This document shows, piece after piece, positions 13,817 to 27,557 of a DNA stretch of 64,000 nucleotides. Under the pieces are notes generated by a model. That model was given only the letters and a program-made list of their open reading frames with translations, had not been told where the DNA came from and made no database searches. How positions within the stretch are numbered: position 1 is the stretch's first letter; the number at the start of each line of letters is the position of its first letter. The DNA is from Phycisphaerae bacterium. GTDB lineage: Bacteria > Planctomycetota > Phycisphaerae > Phycisphaerales > SM1A02. The stretch is taken from contig PKCS01000028.1 of the NCBI GenBank assembly GCA_002862305.1, forward strand, positions 1 through 64,000. The letters run 5' to 3'. A program made the position numbers and the translations under genes.

Positions 13817-15582
13817 GCCCGTCCAGTCCCATCACCCGCCTGTTCCTCCTGCTCGCGCTGTCCTGCGGCCTGACCTGCCTGCCATCGGGTGTGGAGGCGG
13901 AGGAATTCGTGGAAGGCGTGGACCTCGAGCCGCTCTCCTCGCTCGCGGTCCACACCGGAGGTCGACTCAACAGCCTCGGGTCCCACGCCAACGCCCACAT
14001 GCAGCAGGTCTCCGGTCCCCGGAGCATCGGGGGCCGCTCCCCGTTGTTCAGCTACCTCGACATGATGTTCCGCCCCGACGTGTACGAGGACGCGGACGTG
14101 ATCTACGTCAAGAACAAGCTGGTCCGCCGCGCGATCATCGAGGCGCTCAACCGGGACCCCAACGCGGCACTCCGGATCGAGAACTACCAGCCTCGAATGG
14201 CCGCCTTCGAGAAGACCGGCCTGACCTCCGCCAAGGTCCTGGTGGATCCCGCCCTCGGGGAGGTGATGGCGAGGCTGAAGGCGGACCTGGTCCGAACCAA
14301 CAAGGAGGTGGTGAAGCTCGAGAACGCCACCGTCGCGATGAAGCCCGCGGTCCTGCTGGACCGGCTGCGGCTGCTGCCCCCGGCGGGCGACTCCCTGGAT
14401 TCGCCGTGGTTCACCATGAGCAACGTCATGCTGCTGCCCGGGAACTCCGCCGAGGCGGGACTGGTGCCCCAGCCGACCCTGCCGAGCCTCGATGGCGACT
14501 CGCAGGCCGAGCTGGCGGGGCAATGGCAGTCCCTCTACGAATCCTGGACCACCGGCGACGTCTCGGGGGTCAACAAGGCGGTGCTCACCCTGAGCTCCAT
14601 GGTCCCCGACATCAATCCCGAGATCTACCCGTCGCAGAGCCGCCTGTCCTGGGAGTCCTGGTACTTCCGGAACCACCAGCTCACGCGGGTCTGGCTGATC
14701 TACATGCTCTCGGTGATCCTGCTCCTGCTGGGCCTGGTCTACCAGTGGAAATGGGCACGGTGGTCGGGCATGGCGGTCTTCCTGGTCGCGCTGGGGCTGC
14801 AGACCTTCGGGGTCGGCCTGCGCTGGTACATCTCCGGCCGCTGGCCCAACGCGAACATGTACGAGGCGGTCACCACCGCCGCGTGGTTCGGGGCGGCGAT
14901 GGCGGTGGTCTTCGAGCTCCTGGTCCGCCGTACCGGCATGCGCACCATCTTCGCGCTCGCCGCCGGTACCGCGTCGATGTTCGCCCTGATGGCCGCCTAC
15001 TACCTCCCGGCGTACCTGAACCCGAACATCGAGAACATGATGCCGGTGCTCCACGACATCTGGCTCTACATCCACACCAACGTGATCATCTTCAGCTACT
15101 GCCTGATCTTCATGGCGGCGGTCTCCTCGGGCCTCTACATCATGAATCGCATGCTGGGCGGGGCGCCCGCCTACGCCCGGGTCGGCGGCGCGGCCAGCAT
15201 CATGCTGGGGCGCGGGGCCGGCGCGGCCAGCGGGGCGGAGTCCTCAGGCCAGCAGGCGGTCCATCGCCGGGCCCGGCTCGGCGAGGTCCTCGACGGCGTG
15301 ACCATGCTCCTCATGGAACTCTCCTTCGTCCTCCTCTGGGCGGGAATCGTGATGGGCGCGATCTGGGCCGACCATTCCTGGGGACGCCCCTGGGGCTGGG
15401 ACCCCAAGGAGGTCTTCGCCCTCGAGACGTTCATCGTCTTCGCGGTGCTGGTCCACGTGCGCCTGAAGGTCCACGACAAGGGCCTCTGGACCGCGTGGCT
15501 GGCGGTGCTGGGGGCGGCGGTGATGCTCTTCAACTGGATCGTGATCAACTTCGTGATCAGCGGCCTGCACTCCTACGCCTGA
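13813..15582 (+). CDS. ccsA: CcsA/ResC-type cytochrome c haem-transfer protein with N-terminal domain
   Basis: This 589-residue protein has two parts. Residues 1-~290 are an exported region with a signal peptide (LFLLLALSCGLTCLPSGVEA) and a soluble domain that includes FVEGVDLEPLSSLAVHTGGR. Residues ~295-589 are the multi-membrane-span CcsA domain with ANMYEAVTTAAWFG and the tryptophan-rich haem-binding signature WADHSWGRPWGWDPKE. Conserved histidines occur in HTNVIIFSY and VHVRLK, and the end is FVISGLHSYA. With ResB it would export and ligate haem to c-type cytochromes. The ATG overlaps the resB stop (ATGA), so the pair is translationally coupled. The N-terminal domain resembles the extra domain seen when ccsA is fused to other envelope parts; its role is unclear. 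Confidence 0.88.
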   Translation: MSPSSPITRLFLLLALSCGLTCLPSGVEAEEFVEGVDLEPLSSLAVHTGGRLNSLGSHANAHMQQVSGPRSIGGRSPLFSYLDMMFRPDVYEDADVIYVKNKLVRRAIIEALNRDPNAALRIENYQPRMAAFEKTGLTSAKVLVDPALGEVMARLKADLVRTNKEVVKLENATVAMKPAVLLDRLRLLPPAGDSLDSPWFTMSNVMLLPGNSAEAGLVPQPTLPSLDGDSQAELAGQWQSLYESWTTGDVSGVNKAVLTLSSMVPDINPEIYPSQSRLSWESWYFRNHQLTRVWLIYMLSVILLLLGLVYQWKWARWSGMAVFLVALGLQTFGVGLRWYISGRWPNANMYEAVTTAAWFGAAMAVVFELLVRRTGMRTIFALAAGTASMFALMAAYYLPAYLNPNIENMMPVLHDIWLYIHTNVIIFSYCLIFMAAVSSGLYIMNRMLGGAPAYARVGGAASIMLGRGAGAASGAESSGQQAVHRRARLGEVLDGVTMLLMELSFVLLWAGIVMGAIWADHSWGRPWGWDPKEVFALETFIVFAVLVHVRLKVHDKGLWTAWLAVLGAAVMLFNWIVINFVISGLHSYA

Positions 15583-15620
15583 TCCGACGGATCCCGCGTG
15601 CTCCCGATCCCCCGCTCGAC

Positions 15621-15626
15621 TACCAT
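15621..15626 (+). promoter_or_regulatory. -10 hexamer 6 nt before ATG (leaderless type)
   Basis: TACCAT, six bases, then ATG at 15633. There is no -35 match and no canonical Shine-Dalgarno. Confidence 0.5.
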
Positions 15627-15632
15627 CGAGGC

Positions 15633-17003
15633 ATGACCACACTCAACACCCCATCGGCGGTGGCCCCCTCCGGGGAGCTCACCATGGACCAGATCGCCGC
15701 GTTCCGTTCGGGATTCGACGGGGACCGGTCCGCGCGCATCGCCCAGAACGCGGTGACCGCGAACGACGTCAACTCCGTGGCCATGGCCCGGGAGGTCGTC
15801 ACCGGATCCGATGCCAGCTTCTCCACGCGCCTCGACGACTGGTCGGTGACGAACCAGAAGCGTTCCGGCCGCTGCTGGCTCTTCGCCGCCCTCAACCTCT
15901 TCCGGGTCGGCGCGATGCGCAAGATGAACCTCTCCAAGTTCGAGTTCAGCCAGAACTACATGTTCTTCTGGGACAAGTTCGAGCGGGCCAACTACTTCCT
16001 CTGCCAGATCATCGACACCGCGGACCGGGATCCCGACGACCGTACCGTCTCGTTCCTCCTCGATGGCCCCATCGACGACGGCGGGCAGTGGAACATGTTC
16101 ATGAACCTCGTCCGCAAGCACGGGGTGGTCCCGCAGGCCTGCATGCCCGAGACCCACTCCTCCTCCAACTCGGGGCGGATGAACTCGATCCTGCGACACA
16201 AGCTGCGGGAGGGCGCGATGCGCCTCCGCGCCTCCCTCGCCGCGGGGGCCTCCGCCGAGGCCGTCGCCGCCGAGCGGAACGCGATCCTCGCCGTCATCTG
16301 GCGGATCCTCTGCGTCCACCTCGGGACGCCCCCCGAGCGTTTCGACTGGCAGTGGATGGACAAGGACAAGGCCTTCCACCGGGACGGGGAGATGACCCCG
16401 CTGCAGTTCGCCGAGAAGTACATCGAGGTCCCCGCCAACGACTTCGTGTGCCTGGTCCACGACCCGCGGCCCACCAGCCCCTTCGGGCGCACCTTCACCG
16501 TGGATCGACTCGGGAACGTGATGGACGGGGAGCCGGTCGTCTACCTCAACGTGGAGATGGACCTGCTCAAGCGCATCACCCGCGAGGTGCTGGAATCCGG
16601 GGAACCGGTCTGGTTCGGGTGCGACGTCGGGCCCCAGATGGATCGCCAGCTGGGACTCTGGGACAAGGACCTCTTCCGCTACGAGGACGTCTACGGCGAA
16701 CCGTTCACCATGGACAAGGCCCAGCGGCTCATCCACCACCAGACCCTCATGACCCACGCGATGCTCTTCACCGGGGTCGACGTGGTCGACGGCGCGCCCC
16801 GCCGCTGGCGGGTCGAGAACTCCTGGGGGGCCGACAAGAGCGGGCGCGACGGGTACTACACGATGAACGACTCGTGGTTCGACGAGTACATGTTCGAGAT
16901 CGCCGCCCGGAAGTCCGCCCTGCCCGAGGCGCTGCAGGGGGCCTTCGAACAGGATCCCATCGTCCTGCCCGCCTGGGACCCGATGGGCTCCCTGGCCCGC
17001 TGA
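15633..17003 (+). CDS. pepC: Aminopeptidase C / bleomycin hydrolase (peptidase C1B)
   Basis: This is a 456-residue papain-fold peptidase of the bleomycin hydrolase family, close to the family's usual ~450 residues. All catalytic parts are visible: the oxyanion Gln in TNQKRSGRCW, the nucleophile Cys81 in the same motif, His375 in MTHAMLFTGV and Asn396 in VENSWG. The family forms a hexameric barrel in the cytoplasm and trims peptides from the N-terminus. There is no signal peptide, consistent with a cytoplasmic enzyme. The last residues (LAR) extend beyond the usual active-site-guarding C-terminal arm by only a little. It follows ccsA by 50 bp but has its own -10 element and a terminator. Confidence 0.92.
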   Translation: MTTLNTPSAVAPSGELTMDQIAAFRSGFDGDRSARIAQNAVTANDVNSVAMAREVVTGSDASFSTRLDDWSVTNQKRSGRCWLFAALNLFRVGAMRKMNLSKFEFSQNYMFFWDKFERANYFLCQIIDTADRDPDDRTVSFLLDGPIDDGGQWNMFMNLVRKHGVVPQACMPETHSSSNSGRMNSILRHKLREGAMRLRASLAAGASAEAVAAERNAILAVIWRILCVHLGTPPERFDWQWMDKDKAFHRDGEMTPLQFAEKYIEVPANDFVCLVHDPRPTSPFGRTFTVDRLGNVMDGEPVVYLNVEMDLLKRITREVLESGEPVWFGCDVGPQMDRQLGLWDKDLFRYEDVYGEPFTMDKAQRLIHHQTLMTHAMLFTGVDVVDGAPRRWRVENSWGADKSGRDGYYTMNDSWFDEYMFEIAARKSALPEALQGAFEQDPIVLPAWDPMGSLAR

Positions 17004-18082: not shown

Positions 18083-18223
18083 GGTGCATGGTGGGGATCG
18101 AAGCCCGTGCAGGTTTTCGAGATTCCGCTGAGAGGTTCCCGGCTCGCGCACGGAAATGGTCCGGACACGCTCACCCTTCCGCCGGGAGGGGGCCAACGCA
18201 ACCCTCGACTACAGGAGATCGCC

Positions 18224-19924
18224 ATGACCCACCAGACCACCAGCACCGGACCCCGCCTCCTCATCGCCAGCCTCGGCCTGCTGCTCGCGCCGATGGCGAC
18301 CGCGGACTTCCCGGGATTCGACGACCTCGCCACCGGCAGCACCTACGCGGTCGGCGACCACGACACCTCGGACGGGGTCGACTTCGCGTTCACCCCCATG
18401 CCCTGGCTCGGGGGGGGCAGCGGTTCGGGCCGCGCCGACGTCCTGCCTCCCGATCGCTGCCAGGCGTTCAACCGGCTGGACCTCAACAACATCACCGCCA
18501 ACTTCGACTTCGCGGGCACCATCGGTCCCCAGACCGACCTGGTCTTCCAGACCCGCCACCTCGGTGGCCAGATCAACCTCACCGTCAACGGTTCGGCGAT
18601 CGCCTACGCCGGGGACTGGATGGCCTACCACAACAGCATGCTCGGGGGGGTCCGGATCGAGGTCCTTTCCGGTGGCTACAGCGGCGACTGCACCACGATC
18701 CGCCTGCGCGGACGGACCGACACCATGTCCGTCGCCCTGCAGGAGGGCTGGGTGGACGCCTCCTGGTCCTGCGAGGAACCGACCTTCGACGACCTGGCCA
18801 TGGGTGACCTGTACATGGATGGCGACGGGTTCTCGACCCAGGGCATCACCTGCAAGGTGATTCCCTACATGGACCCGATGGGGATCCCCTTCGCCGGGAG
18901 CACCCGGATCGACGCCTCCGACCTCGCCTGCGGTGACGGCCACGAGGCGCGCCAGTACACCAGTGCCATCCAGTTCGACTTCTCGGCGTTCGGCGGTGTG
19001 AACGACCTCCGGATGCTGGTCGGCGACTACGCCAACGGCGTCAACCTCTCCATCAACGGGATGTTCCGCTGGGCCGCGGACTGGCGGGACCTCGACGGGA
19101 TGACCATCGGCGGCTGCCTGGTCACCGTCCCCGTCGGCGGTGCCAACAACGAATGCGCCGAGATCCGCATCGCCGGCCACGTCGACCTGATGGCGGTGGG
19201 TGGCGAGGAGTCCGCCATCGACTGCATCGCCTGGGCCACGGAGGGCACCGGCAGCTCCAACGAGCCGGAACCCGGCCGTTGCGCCACCTACGACGACATG
19301 GTTCCCGGCAGCATGGTGATCCACGGGGTCGGCGACTCCTTCGCCACCACCGGGATCGCCTGCACGGTGGTTCCCTACCACACCGCCCCCATGTCCAGCT
19401 ACCTCGACGGTGCGGCCCTCGCCACCCCCTCGATGCTGGCCTGTGGATCCGGACAGGAACTGTCGATCTACGCCGCCGGGGTCAACCACGACTTCCTCGG
19501 CAGCGGGTCCCCGATGAGCGGGGTCTCCATCACCGCGGCCGACCATGGCGGGGTCCTCAACCTCGGCATCAACGGCGACCTGCGGATCTTCAACACCTTC
19601 GCCGACATCGACGGCGCGATCGTGGGCGGGGTCGAGGTCCGGGTCCTCAGCGGCGGCGGGACCAACGAGTGCACCGAACTCGAGTTCGACGGGGTGCTCG
19701 ACAACCTGCGCCTTGGTGGCGGTCAGCTGTTCCTCGACTGCCTGGAGGGCACCGCGAAGACGTCCGCCGATCCCTCCGACTTCAACCAGGACGGGGTGAT
19801 CGACGGCCAGGACCTGGCCCGGCTCCTGGCGAGCTGGTCCTTCGATGCGGGTGGTGATGCCGACGGTGATGGTGACACCGACGGCCAGGATCTGGCGATC
19901 CTCCTTGGTCGGTGGGCGCCCTGA
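18224..19924 (+). CDS. Secreted protein with three tandem beta domains and dockerin-like tail
   Basis: This is a 566-residue exported protein of unknown function. The start is the ATG at 18224 behind an AGGAG site; it directs a signal peptide ending near MATADF. Three homologous domains of about 155-175 residues follow, each opening with a [FY]DD[LM] motif: FDDLATGSTYAVGD (~26), FDDLAMGDLYMDGD (~189) and YDDMVPGSMVIHGV (~356). Each contains LNxxINGxxRxxxxxxxxDG-like or LTVNGSA strands and a conserved cysteine with NEC. The last ~55 residues hold two EF-hand-like repeats, DFNQDGVIDGQDLARLLASW and DADGDGDTDGQDLAILLGRW. The domain arrangement suggests a modular binding or structural surface protein. 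It is adjacent to two other dockerin-type genes. Confidence 0.8.
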   Translation: MTHQTTSTGPRLLIASLGLLLAPMATADFPGFDDLATGSTYAVGDHDTSDGVDFAFTPMPWLGGGSGSGRADVLPPDRCQAFNRLDLNNITANFDFAGTIGPQTDLVFQTRHLGGQINLTVNGSAIAYAGDWMAYHNSMLGGVRIEVLSGGYSGDCTTIRLRGRTDTMSVALQEGWVDASWSCEEPTFDDLAMGDLYMDGDGFSTQGITCKVIPYMDPMGIPFAGSTRIDASDLACGDGHEARQYTSAIQFDFSAFGGVNDLRMLVGDYANGVNLSINGMFRWAADWRDLDGMTIGGCLVTVPVGGANNECAEIRIAGHVDLMAVGGEESAIDCIAWATEGTGSSNEPEPGRCATYDDMVPGSMVIHGVGDSFATTGIACTVVPYHTAPMSSYLDGAALATPSMLACGSGQELSIYAAGVNHDFLGSGSPMSGVSITAADHGGVLNLGINGDLRIFNTFADIDGAIVGGVEVRVLSGGGTNECTELEFDGVLDNLRLGGGQLFLDCLEGTAKTSADPSDFNQDGVIDGQDLARLLASWSFDAGGDADGDGDTDGQDLAILLGRWAP

Positions 19925-19956
19925 GTCCCGGCGAACCCGCCACCTCGTCCCCGATC

Positions 19957-19989
19957 CACCCCTCCTCGCCGATCCGGCGGGGGGGGGTG
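19957..19989. terminator. GC-rich hairpin between convergent genes
   Basis: CACCCC...CGCCG and CGGCG...GGGGTG pair around a 3-nt loop, with one imperfect stretch. It lies in the 76 bp between the convergent dockerin and CC-repeat genes and could terminate both. Confidence 0.45.
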
Positions 19990-20000
19990 TGTCCTTGGGG

Positions 20001-23000
20001 TCAGCCGGCGGGCACCGGGGCGAGGGTCCCGGGCTTCTGCTCGGCGCCGACCTTGGCATCCACCGGCTTCAGGTAGAGTCCGGCCGCCTGGGGCTTCAGC
20101 TTGGTGCTGGGGAAGCTGCTGGCCGGCAGGGGCTTGGTGGGAGGGGGGGTGAAGAGCCCGCCGTCGGACCCGTCACAGAGCTCCGTGCAGTAGAAGTCCG
20201 CCCAGATCACGCAGTCCTCGCTCCAGAAGATCGTGCAGCAGGTCGGATCGATGGTGCAGACCGTGTTGCAGCAGCTGCTGTCCGAGCAGTACGGGGTGTC
20301 GCCGGCCTGGCAGCAACTGCCCGCCGCCGGGTCACCGCACTGGGTCCCTCCCGAGCAGTCACAGGACGGACTGGAGACGGCGATGGACACGCAGGCCTGG
20401 TCCCACTCCACGTTGACGCAGTAGGAGTCGATCAGGCCCACCGCATCGCAGCACTGCTCGTCCTCGCAGAGCGGGGTCCCGTGGGGCAGGCAGCAGTCGC
20501 CGAGTCCCGGGTCGCCGCACTTGGGGGCGGGGCAGGCGTCGAGGGCGGGGTTGGTGCCGTTCTCGCCGTTGTAGTTGCAGGTCGCCCGGGCCTGCTGGGC
20601 ACAGAAGACGTCCCACTGGCTGTCGCAGCAGAAGGAGTCGAGCTGGCACACCGCATCGCAGCAGGCGGCGTCGTCGCAGGCCGGGGTGCCGTTCGCGCTG
20701 CAGCATTCGCCGGCGCAGGGGCTCCCGCATTCGGCGCTGCAGGACGGGCACGCGGTCTCGTTCTCTCGCGCGAGGAACACGCAGAACTCGTCCCAGGCCC
20801 CCTCGCAGCAGAAGGGATCCTCGTTGCAGACCGCATTGCAGCAGGTCGCGTCCCGGCAGGACGGACTGCCGTTGATCAGGCAGCAGTCGCCGGTCGCGTA
20901 GTCCCCGCAATCGGGGAGTTCGCAGTTCTCGCTGGCCATGTTCGCGCAGGTGGTGTCCCAGGCGACCTGGCAGCAGTAGGTGTCGAGCTCGCAGACCGTG
21001 GTGCAGCAATCGGGGTCATCGCAGCCGGTGCCCAGCTTGCCGATGAAGCAGGATCCGGAGGTGGGGATCCCGCAGCCGCTGGTGCATCGTTCGGCCGCGG
21101 TCGCCACGCAGCCGGAGTCCCAGCGGGTCTCGCAGCAGTAGGGGTCGATGGTGCAGACCGCGGCGCAGCATGCGGGGTCGTCGCAGTTCGGGGTCTCCGA
21201 GGGCACGAGGCAGCTCCCCGCGCAGAAGTCCCCGCAGAAGATCCCGCGGCAGCAGTACTGCTCGGCGAGCGCCACGCAGGAGGCGTCCCAGATCCCGTCC
21301 TCCGCACAGCACTGCGGGTCGAGCTCGCAGACCGCCGCGCAGCAGGAGGCGTCCTCGCAACCGGGTTGCGGGGCATCGGGGTCGTTGATGTCGATCGGGC
21401 GCGGCTCGAAGCAGCTTCCCGCGCAGGGGCAGAACGGCTTGTTCGCGGCATTGCAGTACTGGTTCGCGAGGCCGACGCAGGTGCTGTCCCACTCCCCGGC
21501 GCAGCAGATCGGATCGAGCTCGCAGACCGCCGCGCAGCAGAAGGGGTCCTCGCAGCCGACCCCGCCGTGTTGCTGATTGCAGGGGCCCTCGCCGGGGCAG
21601 ACCAGCAGGTCGTAGCAGAGGACTTCCGCGAGGTCCACGCAGGTCTGGTCCCAGAGGACCTCGCAGCAATCCGCGGCGATGGCGCTGGGCAGCGCGCAGA
21701 CCGCGGCGGCGCATGCGGGGACGTTGCATCCCTTGCCGCCGTGCACCTCGAGGCAGGGCCCGAAGGAGTTGAAGTTGTTCCCGCTGATGCAGCTGGGGAC
21801 GCTGAGGGCGGTGGTGGAGCAGATCGCGTCCCAGGCCACCTCGCAGCAGTAGGGATCGAACGTCTCGCACACCTCGGTGCAGCAGGAGACGTCCCTGCAC
21901 CCTCCAACGTTGTTGGACACGAAGCATCCCCGGGTGTTCGATTCGCCACACACCGAGGTCAGCGGTTCGCAGACGGACTGTGCCAGCGACACGCACTGCT
22001 GGTCCCACAGCACCAGCAGGCAGTACTCGTCGATCGCACCGACCTCGTCGCAGCACTCCTGGTTGTTGCAGGCGGGGCTGTTGTTGGTGAGGTCGAAGCA
22101 CCCGCCGGCGCTGCTTTCGCCGCAGTTGGTGCAGAGGTTCCTCGCCGTCTCGCGGCAGGATTCGTCCCATTCGACCTCGCAGCAGCTGGGGTCCGAGCTG
22201 CAGATCAGGTTGCAGCAGCTGACGTCGGTGCATCCGCCGGGGATCACGGGGGGGGCTGCTCCCTTTTCGGGGGCCTGGACGCAGCTGCCGGTCCCGATCT
22301 CGCCGCAGTTGGCGGAGCGCGCGCAGACCTCGAGGGCGTCGTTCGCGCAGTTCTGGTCCCACGCGATCAGGCAGCAGTAGGGGTCGAACTGGCAGACGGT
22401 GCTGCAGCAGTCGAAGTCCTGGCAACCGCGGGCGGGGCTGAGCACGTCGAGGGTCGGGGCGAAGCAGTTGGGATTGTCGCTCGCTCCCCCGCAGGTCGAG
22501 GAGGCGCTGGCACAGGTCAGGGAGGCCGCCTTCGCGCAGCTGGTGTCCCAGCTGATTTCGCAGCAGGATGGATCCGCCTGGCAGACCAGCGCGCAGCAGG
22601 TGGGGTCCGAGCAGCCGCCGGTGCTGTGGGGCAGCGAGCAGGAACCGAGCGTCTGGTTGTCACTGCCGCAGACCGAGACCGCGCAGGTGATCGCCTGGTT
22701 CTCCTGGCAGAGGATGTCGAGGCACAGCAGCCCCGCGAGGTCGGCGCAGGCCTGGTCCCAGGCGAGCACGCAGCAGAGCGGGTCCTCGGCGCAGACCAGT
22801 GCCTCGCAGCTGCTGGAGAGGCAGCCGGCGTCCGACCGCGGGAGGAGGCAGTTGCCGCCCGTCGAGCCGCAGGCAGTGTCGGCAAGCTGCGCACACTGGA
22901 AATCCCAGCCCGTGCCGCCGAAGTCGCAGCAGAGCTCGTCGATGCTGCAGACCAGCGAGCAGCATTCCGGATCGGTGCAGCCCGGGGTGCCGTCGATGAC

Positions 23001-23471
23001 GGGCGTGGTGCAGTCGTTGGTGCCCGGCGAATTGCGGCAGACCGCCTCGCAGGGACCGAACAGCCGCTCCATGAGGACCAGGTCCCCGCAATACTCCACC
23101 CCGCCGATGGTCGTGGGTTCGAGGTTGATGGTGCCGCTGTTGTCGAGGTCCGCGCAGGGGTCGTATCCGCCCTGGTAGAAGATCTCGATGAGGCGCACCA
23201 CGTCGAACTGGTCGATCATCCCGTCGGCCTTGGGCGCCCCCAGCGCGTTGACCCGGCCGGCGAGGTCCCCGCCGTTGACCACGATCGGTTGCGTGCTCGG
23301 GGAGCCATCGCAGTTGGTCGAGAGCACGTTCTCGCACCTGCAGTTGACCGGGGCCTGCGCGGTGGCCTCGGCCGTCCAGGGGGCGTGGGCAGCCGCGCCC
23401 AGCGCCATCACGGCCATGGCCAGCGTCCACCTCGAGCCTGGTTCCTGGCGCTGATCTTCCTTGACTGCCAA
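20001..23471 (-). CDS. Large secreted cysteine-rich protein with 16 tandem CC repeats
   Basis: This is a 1156-residue exported protein. The start is a TTG at 23471 with AGGAG six bases upstream, giving a signal peptide with a charged front (KEDQRQEPGSRW) and a hydrophobic core (TLAMAVMALGAAAHA). Residues ~45-135 are a dockerin-like pair (DGMIDQFDVVRLIEIF and DLDNSGTINLE...GDLVLMERLFG) with an enlarged second loop. Residues ~140-1110 comprise 16 tandem repeats of about 50-70 residues with the pattern C...GCxDxxCCxxVCxxDxxCCxxxWDxxCxxxAxxxC, typically ~8-10 cysteines each. The tail is short and proline-rich. An even cysteine pattern and export suggest a disulfide-stabilised rod or binding protein, or a metal-binding one. 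I do not recognise the repeat as a named domain. Confidence 0.82.
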   Translation of the reverse strand: MAVKEDQRQEPGSRWTLAMAVMALGAAAHAPWTAEATAQAPVNCRCENVLSTNCDGSPSTQPIVVNGGDLAGRVNALGAPKADGMIDQFDVVRLIEIFYQGGYDPCADLDNSGTINLEPTTIGGVEYCGDLVLMERLFGPCEAVCRNSPGTNDCTTPVIDGTPGCTDPECCSLVCSIDELCCDFGGTGWDFQCAQLADTACGSTGGNCLLPRSDAGCLSSSCEALVCAEDPLCCVLAWDQACADLAGLLCLDILCQENQAITCAVSVCGSDNQTLGSCSLPHSTGGCSDPTCCALVCQADPSCCEISWDTSCAKAASLTCASASSTCGGASDNPNCFAPTLDVLSPARGCQDFDCCSTVCQFDPYCCLIAWDQNCANDALEVCARSANCGEIGTGSCVQAPEKGAAPPVIPGGCTDVSCCNLICSSDPSCCEVEWDESCRETARNLCTNCGESSAGGCFDLTNNSPACNNQECCDEVGAIDEYCLLVLWDQQCVSLAQSVCEPLTSVCGESNTRGCFVSNNVGGCRDVSCCTEVCETFDPYCCEVAWDAICSTTALSVPSCISGNNFNSFGPCLEVHGGKGCNVPACAAAVCALPSAIAADCCEVLWDQTCVDLAEVLCYDLLVCPGEGPCNQQHGGVGCEDPFCCAAVCELDPICCAGEWDSTCVGLANQYCNAANKPFCPCAGSCFEPRPIDINDPDAPQPGCEDASCCAAVCELDPQCCAEDGIWDASCVALAEQYCCRGIFCGDFCAGSCLVPSETPNCDDPACCAAVCTIDPYCCETRWDSGCVATAAERCTSGCGIPTSGSCFIGKLGTGCDDPDCCTTVCELDTYCCQVAWDTTCANMASENCELPDCGDYATGDCCLINGSPSCRDATCCNAVCNEDPFCCEGAWDEFCVFLARENETACPSCSAECGSPCAGECCSANGTPACDDAACCDAVCQLDSFCCDSQWDVFCAQQARATCNYNGENGTNPALDACPAPKCGDPGLGDCCLPHGTPLCEDEQCCDAVGLIDSYCVNVEWDQACVSIAVSSPSCDCSGGTQCGDPAAGSCCQAGDTPYCSDSSCCNTVCTIDPTCCTIFWSEDCVIWADFYCTELCDGSDGGLFTPPPTKPLPASSFPSTKLKPQAAGLYLKPVDAKVGAEQKPGTLAPVPAG

Positions 23472-23582
23472 CGAACTCTCCTTGCATGGCCGACCCGAGG
23501 GGGGCGGGCAGGGTGTTCTCCGTCCGGCGATCCGGGGCGGTTCCATCCGTGTCTGGACCTCCGTCATTCTACCGATTCGGGC

Positions 23583-23611
23583 GGGCGCCCCGACGGGGTG
23601 CGGGGCGTCCC
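23583..23611 (-). terminator. Hairpin after uppS
   Basis: GGGCGCCCC and GGGGCGTCCC pair with one bulged base around a 10-nt loop, in the 222 bp between the CC-repeat gene and the end of uppS. Read on the minus strand it lies just after uppS. No T-run. The rest of this 222-bp gap shows no gene. Confidence 0.35.
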
Positions 23612-23693
23612 TTCTCCACTCTAGGGCATTCCGTCCCAGAGACTTCGGAACTTCGGGGAATCCGGACGGAAAACCCGTGGTCGGTGGTCGTTT

Positions 23694-24512
23694 TCACCGG
23701 TTTCCATCCCGTTCACCAACCCCCGGCGGGACGTCCCCGTCGGGGGCCTCGCCCGGGGGGACCCCACCGAACCGCCGGGTGCGTTCCGCGAAGTCCTCGA
23801 TGGCGGCATTGAGCGAGTGCTCGTCGAATTCCGGCCAGGTCCGGTCGAGCACCAGGAACTCCGCGTAGGAGACCTGCCACAGCAGGTAGTTCGAGATCCG
23901 GTGTTCCCCCGCGGTCCTGATGAGCAGGTCGGGATCCGGGAGGCCCCGGGTGTAGAGCGCCGAGTCGATCGCGGACTCGTCGATCTCGTCGGGCGCCAGG
24001 CTTCCGGCCGCGCACCGGCCGGCGAGGGTCCGGAAGGCGTCGACCAGCTCCTGGCGCGCCCCGTAGTTGATCGCCAGCACCAGGGTCATGCCCGAGCAGC
24101 CGGCGGTGGCCTCCTCGGTCCGGCGGATCTCCTCCAGCACCGACGCCGGCATCCCCTCGTCGCGTCCGATGCGTCGCAACCTGATGTCGTTGGCCAGCAG
24201 CCGGGGTCGCTCGGAGACGAGGTGCTGGCGGCAGAGTTCCATCAGCGCTTCCACCTCCTCCTTCGGCCGCTTCCAGTTCTCGTTGGAGAACGAGTACAGG
24301 GTCAGCACCTCCAGCCCGATCCGACGCGCGTGCTCCACGATCCTCCGGACGGTTCGTGCCCCCTCGCGGTGGCCGTGGAGTCGCGGTCGTCCCTGCTCGT
24401 TCGCCCAGCGTCCATTGCCGTCCATGATGATCGCGACGTGGCGGGGCCGCTTCTCCGGCGGGCATTCCGGCAGGGGGTGGGGGGGAGCTGGTTCTCGTTC
24501 GCCTTGGGTCAC
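23694..24512 (-). CDS. uppS: Isoprenyl transferase (undecaprenyl diphosphate synthase)
   Basis: This is a 272-residue cis-prenyltransferase. It has VAIIMDGNGRWA with the catalytic Asp31, LTLYSFSNENWKRPKEEV, the substrate-binding region RTAGEHRISNYLLWQVSYAE (with the RxSNxLLWQ signature) and the C-terminal Trp/Glu motif. It condenses isopentenyl diphosphate onto farnesyl diphosphate to form undecaprenyl diphosphate, the lipid carrier for cell-wall and surface polysaccharides. The start is GTG with AGGAAC upstream. It is 23 bp downstream of purA and probably cotranscribed. The N-terminal ~22 residues are a proline/glutamate extension beyond the family core. Confidence 0.93.
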   Translation of the reverse strand: MTQGEREPAPPHPLPECPPEKRPRHVAIIMDGNGRWANEQGRPRLHGHREGARTVRRIVEHARRIGLEVLTLYSFSNENWKRPKEEVEALMELCRQHLVSERPRLLANDIRLRRIGRDEGMPASVLEEIRRTEEATAGCSGMTLVLAINYGARQELVDAFRTLAGRCAAGSLAPDEIDESAIDSALYTRGLPDPDLLIRTAGEHRISNYLLWQVSYAEFLVLDRTWPEFDEHSLNAAIEDFAERTRRFGGVPPGEAPDGDVPPGVGERDGNR

Positions 24513-24535: not shown

Positions 24536-25849
24536 TCAGACGAGGTGTTCGGCCACCATGGTCTGGGTCCGTTCCGGGCCGATGCTGACGAGGCCGATGG
24601 GGAGTTCGAGGTACTCCTCGATGAATCCGAGGTATCCCTGCGCGGCGGCAGGCAGCTCCTCCCGGGCGCAGTCGCCCTCCAGCGGGCCGTCCCAGCCCGG
24701 CAGGGTCTCGTAGACCGGCTCAACCCCGGCCAGGAGGTCGCTGTCGGGGAGGAACCGGTCGGTGGTGCTGCCGTCCGGCAGTCGGTAGCTGGTGCAGACC
24801 TTCACCTCCTCGAGCCCCCACAGGACGTCCAGCAGCATGCAGGCGACCGAGTCGACCCCGCAGAGCATCGTGGCGTATCGCACCGCGACCAGGTCCAGCC
24901 AGCCGCAGCGCCTCGGTCGTCCCGTGGTGGTGCCGTACTCGCGTCCTCGTTCGCGGATGCGCTCACCGACCGCATCATCGAGTTCGGTCGGGAAGGCGCC
25001 TGCCCCGACGCGGGTCCCGTAGGCCTTCATGATCCCGATCACGGTGTCCACGGTCCGTCCGGGCAGACCGGTCCCCGCGGGAATGCCGAGCGTCGAGCAG
25101 TTGGAGCTGGTGACGAAGGGGAAGGTCCCGTGGTCGATGTCGAGCAGGCAGGCGTTGGCGCCCTCGAAGAGCAGTCGCTTCCCCTCACGCACCGCTCCAT
25201 GGAGGTGGTAGGTGGTGTCGATGATGCGGTCCCCGAGCCGATCCGCCCAGGTCCGGCAGGACTCGAGGATCGCCCGGGGGTCCGGACGTTCCGTGCTGCC
25301 CAGCGAGCCCAGCTGCTGGGCGTGCAGTTCGCAGGCAAGTTCGATCTTCTCCTGCAGGGCGGCGCCCCCACGGCGGATGTCGCCCATGCGGACCGCCGGG
25401 GTCCGCGTGACCTTGTCGGCGTAGGCGGGGCCGATCCCCCGTCGGGTGGTCCCGATCGACCGATTGTCCTCGGGGTCCGATCGTCCGGTCAGGAACTCCT
25501 CGAGCGCCCCGTCCATCATCTTGTGGTACTCGAGCACCGCGTGCGCCCGGTCGGAGACGAAGAGGCGTTCGGAGCCGTTGATCCCCCGGGCCTCCAGCGA
25601 GTCGAGCTCCTCGATGAGCTTGCCGGGGTCCACCACCACCCCGTTGCCCACCACGCACTCGATGTCCGGATAGAGGATCCCCGATGGTATGAGGTGCAGG
25701 GCGTAGGTGTCCTCGCCCACCACCACGGTGTGCCCCGCGTTGGCGCCGCCGTTGTAGCGGACCACCACGTCGTGCCGGGCGGTGAGGAGGTCCACGACCT
25801 TGCCCTTCCCCTCGTCCCCCCATTGAAGTCCCACTACGGCGGTGTGCAT
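24536..25849 (-). CDS. purA: Adenylosuccinate synthase
   Basis: This is a 437-residue PurA, close to the usual ~430. The GTP/IMP site is clear: GLQWGDEGKGKVVD with catalytic Asp12, and YNGGANAGHTVV with His40. Later motifs are GTTRRGIGPAY, the GANACLLDIDHGTFPFVTSS loop and TTTGRPRRCGWLD. It catalyses IMP + aspartate + GTP to adenylosuccinate, the first committed AMP step. It is cotranscribed with uppS, an unrelated pathway. No clear Shine-Dalgarno precedes the ATG. Confidence 0.95.
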   Translation of the reverse strand: MHTAVVGLQWGDEGKGKVVDLLTARHDVVVRYNGGANAGHTVVVGEDTYALHLIPSGILYPDIECVVGNGVVVDPGKLIEELDSLEARGINGSERLFVSDRAHAVLEYHKMMDGALEEFLTGRSDPEDNRSIGTTRRGIGPAYADKVTRTPAVRMGDIRRGGAALQEKIELACELHAQQLGSLGSTERPDPRAILESCRTWADRLGDRIIDTTYHLHGAVREGKRLLFEGANACLLDIDHGTFPFVTSSNCSTLGIPAGTGLPGRTVDTVIGIMKAYGTRVGAGAFPTELDDAVGERIRERGREYGTTTGRPRRCGWLDLVAVRYATMLCGVDSVACMLLDVLWGLEEVKVCTSYRLPDGSTTDRFLPDSDLLAGVEPVYETLPGWDGPLEGDCAREELPAAAQGYLGFIEEYLELPIGLVSIGPERTQTMVAEHLV

Positions 25850-26007
25850 CGGATGTCCGGTCTGGATTGGGTGCCGACCCGGACCACGGTCCGGTCGCGC
25901 ACGGTGCTGGATGGCGTCCACGAGGCATTGTATCGGGCCTTGGAGAATCCGTCGCCGTGCGGGGCCTCGAGGCTCAAGACGCGCCGACAACGGGTCGATG
26001 TCCCGAT

Positions 26008-26025
26008 GGCCCCCGGTGGGGGGCC
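26008..26025 (+). other. GC hairpin upstream of the zinc-ribbon gene
   Basis: GGCCCCC and GGGGGCC form a perfect 7-bp stem with a 4-nt loop, 27 bp before the zinc-ribbon start. It may be a small terminator or an RNA structure that limits translation. The rest of the 200-bp gap after purA shows nothing definite. Confidence 0.35.
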
Positions 26026-26051
26026 AGGGAATGAACGACACGGAGCGAACC

Positions 26052-26249
26052 ATGCCAGAGTCCACCAACAACGTCGTCAAGGTCATGTGCCCGAACCTCG
26101 GATGCCAGAGGATCCTCGCGGTCCCGGCCCGGGCACGCGGGGAGGTGGTCCGCTGTGGTGGATGCAACACCAACATCCGGATCCCCGAGCCCAGAACCGG
26201 CGAGACCCGGCCCCGGCGAGGTGGTTCCAGGCCCCCCTGGGCGGCCTGA
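26052..26249 (+). CDS. Zinc-ribbon microprotein
   Basis: This is a 65-residue protein. It holds a two-CxxC-like zinc ribbon, CPNLGCQRIL (C-x4-C) and VRCGGCNTNIRIPE (C-x2-C), similar to the MJ0042-type finger that sits at the N-terminus of many bacterial proteins. A basic Arg/Gly/Pro-rich tail follows. GGAG lies six bases before the ATG, which favours 26052 over an in-frame ATG at 26031. It stands alone, so it may bind nucleic acid or a larger partner. Function unknown. Confidence 0.65.
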   Translation: MPESTNNVVKVMCPNLGCQRILAVPARARGEVVRCGGCNTNIRIPEPRTGETRPRRGGSRPPWAA

Positions 26250-26304
26250 GCGGCTCCTTGCGCGCGATCTTCCGCGAGGTACCCCCGGCCACCCCGCGGC
26301 GACC

Positions 26305-26310
26305 TAGAGT
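26305..26310 (+). promoter_or_regulatory. Candidate -10 hexamer for hemW
   Basis: TAGAGT (three to four consensus matches) lies 35 nt before the hemW ATG. No -35 was seen. Weak on its own but of the same TAnnnT form as other elements here. Confidence 0.25.
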
Positions 26311-26345
26311 GAGTCCAGCGAACACCTCGGGACGGACGCACCGAC

Positions 26346-27557
26346 ATGGGTCTCACACTCAGGCAATTCGACGGGGACCCCGCGTCGCCCGAGCCTCCCC
26401 CGACGCTGTCCTCCATCATCGGGACGGGGGCCCATCGCTTCGACGCGGCCTACCTCCACGTCCCGTTCTGCTTCCACAAGTGCCACTACTGCGACTTCTA
26501 CTCGGTCGTGGATGCAGACGACCAGCAGGAATCGTTCATCGAGCGGCTGGTGGGGGAGGTCGAACTCCAGGCGCGGCACGTCTCCGGCCCGCTCGACTCC
26601 GTCTTCATGGGCGGTGGGACCCCGACCCTCCTGCGCCCCGAGCTCCTCTCGAGGCTGCTGGAGGCGATCTCCACGCACCTCCCGCTTTCCGATGGATGCG
26701 AGTGGACCGTGGAGGCCAATCCCGAGACCGTGACCCCCGAGATCGCCGAGGTCCTCGCGGCGGGGGGGGTGAACCGCGCGAGCATCGGGTGCCAGAGCTT
26801 CTCGCCCCGACTGCTTCGTGCCCTGGAGCGCCGCCATGATCCCGCCAGCGTTCCCCGGGCCGTCGAATCGCTCCGTCGGGCGGGGATCGGTTCCTGCAGC
26901 CTCGACCTGATCATGGGCATCCCGGGTTCATCGATGGCCGACTGGCGCTCCGACCTCGAGCAGGCGATCGCCCTGGAACCCGACCACCTCTCCTGCTACG
27001 GCCTCCAGTACGAGCCGAACACCCCGCTCGCGGCGAAGCTCGCGCGAGGCCGGGTCGAAGCCGTCGCCCAGGAGGTCGAGGCCGGGATGTACGAGTGGAC
27101 CTGCGAACGACTCCGGACCGCCGGCTGGGAGCAGTACGAGATCAGCAACTGGGCCCGACCGGGACGCTGCTGTCGCCACAACCTCGTCTACTGGACCGGC
27201 GGCAGCTGGCTGGCCATGGGCCCGAGCGCGGCCGGGCACCTGGACGGCGTGCGATGGCGCAACGTGCCGCGTCACGCCTCCTGGCAGGCGGGGGACGGAT
27301 GGCCGCTGCTGGAGGACCTCGAGCGTCTCGACGACTCCACCCGCCATGGGGAGCAGCTGATGCTCGAACTGAGGTTGAATCGAGGCATCGAACTCGACCG
27401 CCTCGACTGCATGGTGCAGGGAGACGGCTGCGAGCAACGTCGCGTCGCCATCGAGACCGGTCGCCGGGACGGGCTCCTGGAGCTCGAATCCGGTCGCCTG
27501 CGCCTGACTGCCCGGGGGCGGTTGCTCGCCGATTCCCTGCTTTGCCAACTTGTCTAG
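26346..27557 (+). CDS. hemW: HemW-like radical SAM haem chaperone
   Basis: This is a 403-residue radical SAM protein of the HemW/HemN-like family. The [4Fe-4S] motif is YLHVPFCFHKCHYCDFYS (Cys42, Cys46, Cys49). Further motifs are GGGTPTLL and VNRASIGCQSFSP, and a C-terminal HemW domain is present. HemW binds haem and inserts it into proteins; it is often misnamed coproporphyrinogen oxidase. The CxxxCxxC spacing without the extra HemN N-terminal motif favours HemW. Start ATG at 26346. The next gene, a UbiA-family prenyltransferase, follows 59 bp later. Confidence 0.87.
   Translation: MGLTLRQFDGDPASPEPPPTLSSIIGTGAHRFDAAYLHVPFCFHKCHYCDFYSVVDADDQQESFIERLVGEVELQARHVSGPLDSVFMGGGTPTLLRPELLSRLLEAISTHLPLSDGCEWTVEANPETVTPEIAEVLAAGGVNRASIGCQSFSPRLLRALERRHDPASVPRAVESLRRAGIGSCSLDLIMGIPGSSMADWRSDLEQAIALEPDHLSCYGLQYEPNTPLAAKLARGRVEAVAQEVEAGMYEWTCERLRTAGWEQYEISNWARPGRCCRHNLVYWTGGSWLAMGPSAAGHLDGVRWRNVPRHASWQAGDGWPLLEDLERLDDSTRHGEQLMLELRLNRGIELDRLDCMVQGDGCEQRRVAIETGRRDGLLELESGRLRLTARGRLLADSLLCQLV

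Follow-up and report, generated by a model that had tools for sequence, protein, structure and literature searches.

The window (the whole 64,000-nucleotide stretch of DNA that was analysed) carries on its reverse strand an ORF for a protein built of 16 cysteine-rich units in tandem, which are preceded by a putative signal sequence and a dockerin-like segment and followed by a Pro/Lys-containing tail, with uppS and an ORF holding purA upstream (Table 1). A good ribosome-binding site (AAGGAG) lies just 5' of the TTG start at 23471, the same-genus orthologue aligns with the array protein over nearly its full length, and conservation of the frame in orthologues excludes chance or a frame artefact as the origin of the ORF. 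A 1259-aa open frame antisense to the array (19845-23624, forward strand) is taken as a shadow of the GC-rich coding strand.

Table 1. Features of the array gene, its neighbors and related loci (positions are those of the window except where another locus is named)
Feature	Position	Strand	Remarks
Array protein ORF, 1156 aa	20001..23471	-	TTG start, AAGGAG upstream; ATG at 23567 would give 1188 aa
N-terminal signal sequence	23352..23471	-	by eye: a hydrophobic stretch followed by ATAQA/PVNC
Dockerin-like (EF-hand-like) segment, enlarged loops	23055..23276 (limits approximate)	-	by eye; orthologue segments score as Dockerin_1
Unit 1	22860..23021	-	corresponds to unit 2 of 17-unit orthologues
Unit 2	22650..22859	-	
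Unit 3	22476..22649	-	
Unit 4	22293..22475	-	
Unit 5	22110..22292	-	
Unit 6	21936..22109	-	lacks both C23 and C30
Unit 7	21765..21935	-	
Unit 8	21591..21764	-	
Unit 9	21423..21590	-	
Unit 10	21222..21422	-	
Unit 11	21060..21221	-	modelled alone by AlphaFold
Unit 12	20895..21059	-	
Unit 13	20715..20894	-	
Unit 14	20505..20714	-	
Unit 15	20325..20504	-	lacks both C23 and C30
Unit 16	20160..20324	-	WS replaces WD
C-terminal Pro/Lys-containing tail	20004..20159	-	no cysteine, net charge +4
uppS (undecaprenyl diphosphate synthase)	23694..24512	-	Pfam PF01255, E=2.9e-79; conserved upstream neighbor, same strand
ORF holding purA (adenylosuccinate synthetase)	24536..26419	-	name from sequence; start position uncertain; homologues adjoin uppS elsewhere
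Reprolysin-like/FG-GAP protein	L190 10440-13355	-	
Reprolysin-like/FG-GAP protein	L081 4064-6913	-	peptidase region weak
Reprolysin-like/FG-GAP protein	L200 3344-6178	+	

Export of the array protein, already part of the original prediction, is likely, judging from the signal-like N-terminus. A dockerin-like segment with an enlarged second loop had also been proposed there, and this stands in part: the protein resembles type I dockerins in its EF-hand-like pair near the N-terminus, and the corresponding segments of two orthologues match Dockerin_1 weakly (E=2e-4 in L188, 0.02 in L187), but Pfam does not detect a dockerin in the window protein (no Dockerin_1 match at E<=1 in window 23016-23471), and both loops look enlarged. 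Orthologue N-termini vary, some having a dockerin-like pair and, after it, a ~250-residue domain; the latter resembles a lamin-tail domain by eye, an identification that Pfam does not confirm and that was dropped. Another protein of the window's genome (L183 2342-5572, forward strand) combines one unit with several copies of an INEIR...YxELKG domain; by eye, this domain is related to the one at the N-terminus of some array orthologues. At the opposite end, tails are more basic in some orthologues (+13 in L186, +9 in L187). The high acidity of the array (net -118 over 954 aa) was considered as a special trait and set aside as uninformative, because exported neighbor proteins are almost equally acidic (-9 to -11 per 100 residues).

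The units follow the pattern C-x(n)-GC-x-D-xx-CC-xx-VC-xx-D-xx-CC-xxx-WD-xx-C-xxx-A-xxx-C, and the protein contains exactly 16 unambiguous W[D/S]xxC cores at a spacing of 49-70 aa, in agreement with the predicted number of tandem repeats and their shared motif. Invariant in the 16-unit alignment (unit 1 numbering) are C4, C15, C20, C31, W39, C43, A47 and C51; the WD and AxxxC anchors are thus nearly invariant, as had been noted, with WD in 15 of the 16 units and WS in the remaining one. The remark that cysteines per repeat are mostly even depends on where the units are cut: it is true of W-to-W intervals (12/15 even) and less so for cuts before the first cysteine (9/16 even). At the DNA level, a degenerate pattern for D-x-[FY]-CC-xxx-WD-xxC-[AV] matched five times in the window, vs. 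none in 100 shuffles.

Iterated HMM searches of the retrieved loci yielded 595 non-redundant units from 178 loci, sharing the profile match and the Cys/WD pattern, with a 55-residue consensus: one family. Pfam-A gave no match at E<=10 to the 16 window units, and no Pfam family matched the whole protein; among 120 diverse units the best Pfam-A E was 0.12, each family appearing in one unit only, and the best NCBIfam E was 0.16, in one unit. NCBIfam, PHROGs and PDB sequence searches returned nothing of note for protein or units, and a PDB profile search with the unit gave a short chance match at best (E=0.63). Kinship with phospholipase A2, suggested by one unit at E=0.13, was rejected as chance level. 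Foldseek against the PDB found no match for a three-unit model and an unconvincing one (E=6.7) for a single unit; a second-look structure aligner found none for either model. Literature searches on the repeat found no description of it. The profile HMM of the repeats, proposed as a check, thus recovered a family without strong match to any described one, and the earlier statement that the repeat is no recognized named domain holds across Pfam, NCBIfam and PDB; identification of the unit as an undescribed exported domain of ~55 residues, representing an unnamed family, is well supported.

Fold prediction by AlphaFold, another suggested check, gave a confident helical model, with mean pLDDT of 89.9 for units 11-13 and 84.4 for unit 11 alone (both with an alignment of relatives) and three short helices predicted per unit, at positions 16-25, 28-31 and 36-45; at a pTM of 0.64, unit-to-unit geometry is not fixed by the model. 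A new fold is possible, a claim held at that level because small disulfide-rich domains are hard for fold searches. The conserved Asp residues (15, 26, 35) immediately precede the predicted helices and, because of this placement, are read as probable helix caps, not metal ligands.

Planctomycete units usually carry cysteines at C4, C13, C18, C19, C23, C29, C30, C38, C46 and C51; C29 and C38 are invariant. Counted over ~480 units, C23 and C30 of planctomycete units are lost jointly seven times (twice in the window protein, units 6 and 15) and singly twice (p=1e-13), C18 and C46 jointly nine times and singly nine times (p=2e-12), and C4 and C13 jointly six times (p=2e-9), these being Fisher values that ignore relatedness and are too optimistic because the units share ancestry. 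The paired losses support disulfides C23-C30, C18-C46 and C4-C13, and by elimination only, C29-C38 and C19-C51 would make up the remaining pairs; the original idea of a disulfide-rich module is strengthened accordingly. Myxobacterial units keep ten cysteines, with C5 and C21 usually replacing C18 and C19, and their covariation (C5-C46, p=0.01; C21-C51, p=0.001) is consistent with a change of disulfide partner, making the two layouts a test case for disulfide relocation within one fold. Another possibility is that the units, for which metal binding had also been raised in the original prediction, are metal-binding or metallothionein-like and sequester thiophilic metals: cysteine makes up ~19-20% of the unit, and one of the 120 units scores to Metallothio_Cad (E=0.12). 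With 120 queries, however, such a score is expected by chance, and the cysteines disappear in pairs, as disulfides do, in proteins that are exported and whose Asp anchors can be explained as helix caps; metal binding is thus unsupported, and we consider it very unlikely.

The order of the units is conserved. Exactly 17 are found in nine proteins from other planctomycete genomes, and in pairwise comparison of these nine, the best partner of a unit lies at the same index in 401 of 612 cases, vs. 36 expected, with a diagonal z >4 in every pair. The window protein fits all nine (9/9) at an offset of +1 only (z 5.0-7.1), and for this reason is considered a 17-unit array minus unit 1; all 16 of its units correspond to those of the same-genus protein (L186). 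Copy number in relatives, the third check proposed, is therefore 17 in nine orthologues and 15 to 20 across large arrays. This range is what might be expected if the array were a neutral, fast-changing repeat without specific function, but such drift is contradicted by the persistence of unit order between genera and by TRF, which found no DNA-level tandem array in the window, so that the unit duplications must be old; we regard it as most improbable, and the same two observations exclude a recent tandem expansion. The array is thus, with good support from sequence comparison, an old, positionally fixed protein; it is not a repeat in recent expansion. In some lineages it may have been rebuilt, since the 18-20-unit arrays (L189, L193, L194, L132, L172) do not fall clearly into register with that of the window. 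The new point here is an array whose unit order persists between genera: in such a natural long tandem protein, with unit identity retained, unit swaps could be used to probe the fixed order.

Outside arrays, the unit usually occurs in 1-4 copies, often C-terminal, on exported peptidases, Kelch or lectin proteins. Companion domains in 46 myxobacterial unit proteins include Kelch, MopE, M43, trypsin, reprolysin and Kunitz domains; in 59 others, they include dockerin (16 of the 59 scanned), galactose-binding-like, C-type lectin, P-domain, subtilase and FG-GAP. Seven more ORFs with units occur in the window's genome, including one for a metallopeptidase-like protein that has four units and, at one end, a dockerin-like segment.

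The unit has two modes of use, as 1-4 copies on exported enzymes or binding proteins and as a single old array of 17 units (here 16). It would comprise three short helices stapled by some five disulfides, with an invariant Trp and an Asp before each helix. Once exported, oxidized and extended, the array protein could stand at the cell surface as a modular rod or scaffold that resists proteases, anchored in part through the EF-hand-like segment at its N-terminus and its Pro/Lys tail, and individual units would offer specific surfaces to partners; on this proposal, unit order is not scrambled because those surfaces are position-specific. We infer the rod shape, extension, surface location, scaffold role and partners from these features, and the "rod" and "adhesive" readings in the original prediction have a similarly provisional character; the chances that an extracellular, disulfide-stapled rod or scaffold is the correct function seem to us about even. 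A more specific version, in which the unit has a new disulfide-rich fold and each unit of a fixed-order extracellular scaffold docks a different partner, possibly among the numerous unit-bearing exported proteins encoded by its genome, is rather a long shot.

In the main rival reading, the unit would be an accessory module that binds a substrate or surface, with a role like that of a carbohydrate-binding module, and the array would be a multivalent binder, not a rod. This reading would fit the frequent C-terminal attachment of units to metallopeptidases, trypsin, subtilase, Kelch/galactose-oxidase-like and C-type lectin proteins, and the finding that, in three loci, uppS and the array are separated by a secreted reprolysin-like/FG-GAP protein of ~950 aa; a stabilizing or linker role, however, accounts for the same architectures, and we hold the binder to be possible but somewhat unlikely.

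Of the 121 genomes of the window's family, 99 matched the window protein used as query, and in 47 there was a long match to the array (E<=1e-70); the 22 without any match show that the family can do without the array. A profile of the window units matched 34 of 37 genomes of this family and none of 24 from the order's other families, and in a sample spread evenly over the phylum, 8 of 392 genomes matched, all of the window's family (0/383 sampled planctomycetes outside it). Myxococcota are the other main holders (51 of 188 sampled genomes); in a Flavobacteriales sample, two of 199 genomes matched strongly and 14 weakly, the weak ones being perhaps compositional. When genome contigs were scanned with a DNA pattern, the matches listed included MAGs of Phycisphaerae and other planctomycetes, two MAGs of Flavobacteriales and many Myxococcota (Sorangium, Corallococcus, Myxococcus, Minicystis, Polyangium, Enhygromyxa, Paraliomyxa, Nannocystis). 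This exported domain, abundant in planctomycetes and myxobacteria, is without a model in the libraries searched, and proteins that bear it go unannotated for that reason. Phage or plasmid origin was rejected, phage and plasmid records having no match. Two putatively viral IMG/VR contigs (L060 5283-5909, L061 3335-3961) share a secreted protein of 209 aa with a single unit at its C-terminus, and a MAG labelled Limnohabitans (L153, contig JASGCF010000016.1) has 28 units and is probably mislabelled or contaminated by a planctomycete.

Several known systems offer partial parallels. TraA of myxobacteria is an exported surface protein that, like the array protein, has tandem Cys-rich repeats; these are hypothesized to form a stalk (PMC6372800), which speaks for the rod reading, but its repeats are of ~20 residues, and the TraA model (NCBIfam NF033759) matched none of the units scanned alone. 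The Cys-rich YTV cell-wall proteins are envelope proteins from the same phylum, reported as restricted to Planctomycetales (PMC8567305); their motif is unlike that of the unit, and Pfam gave no meaningful match in window protein or units, the presence of a YTV model in that library not being confirmed. The Cys-rich repeats myxo_disulf_rpt (TIGR02232) and DUF4215 are present in some of the same proteins as the unit, but neither model matches the unit itself.

Taken as a whole, the original prediction was sound as observation and partly so as interpretation (supported as to an unnamed, disulfide-rich and exported domain, but not as to metal binding); positional orthology, wide presence in Myxococcota and the uppS neighborhood were absent from it. 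Of 13 loci with flanking sequence, 12 (the window, L081, L122, L186, L187, L188, L189, L190, L192, L193, L196 and L200) have the array downstream of uppS and on its strand, and in L194 the array is convergent. Also nearby are purA and hemN-like genes, an inversion being present in some genomes, and in eight family genomes lacking the array at this locus, purA is still close to uppS; the uppS linkage may be inherited gene order alone. On its other side, the window array adjoins a forward-strand ORF (18212-19924) for a secreted protein with three ~170-residue repeats (F/Y-D-D-[LM]...G) and a weak C-terminal dockerin, a homologue of which also adjoins the array in two congeners (L186, L192). Beyond it is a Peptidase C1-like ORF of the bleomycin-hydrolase type (15573-17003, forward strand; Pfam E=1e-170), homologues of which are likewise found near the array in two congeners.
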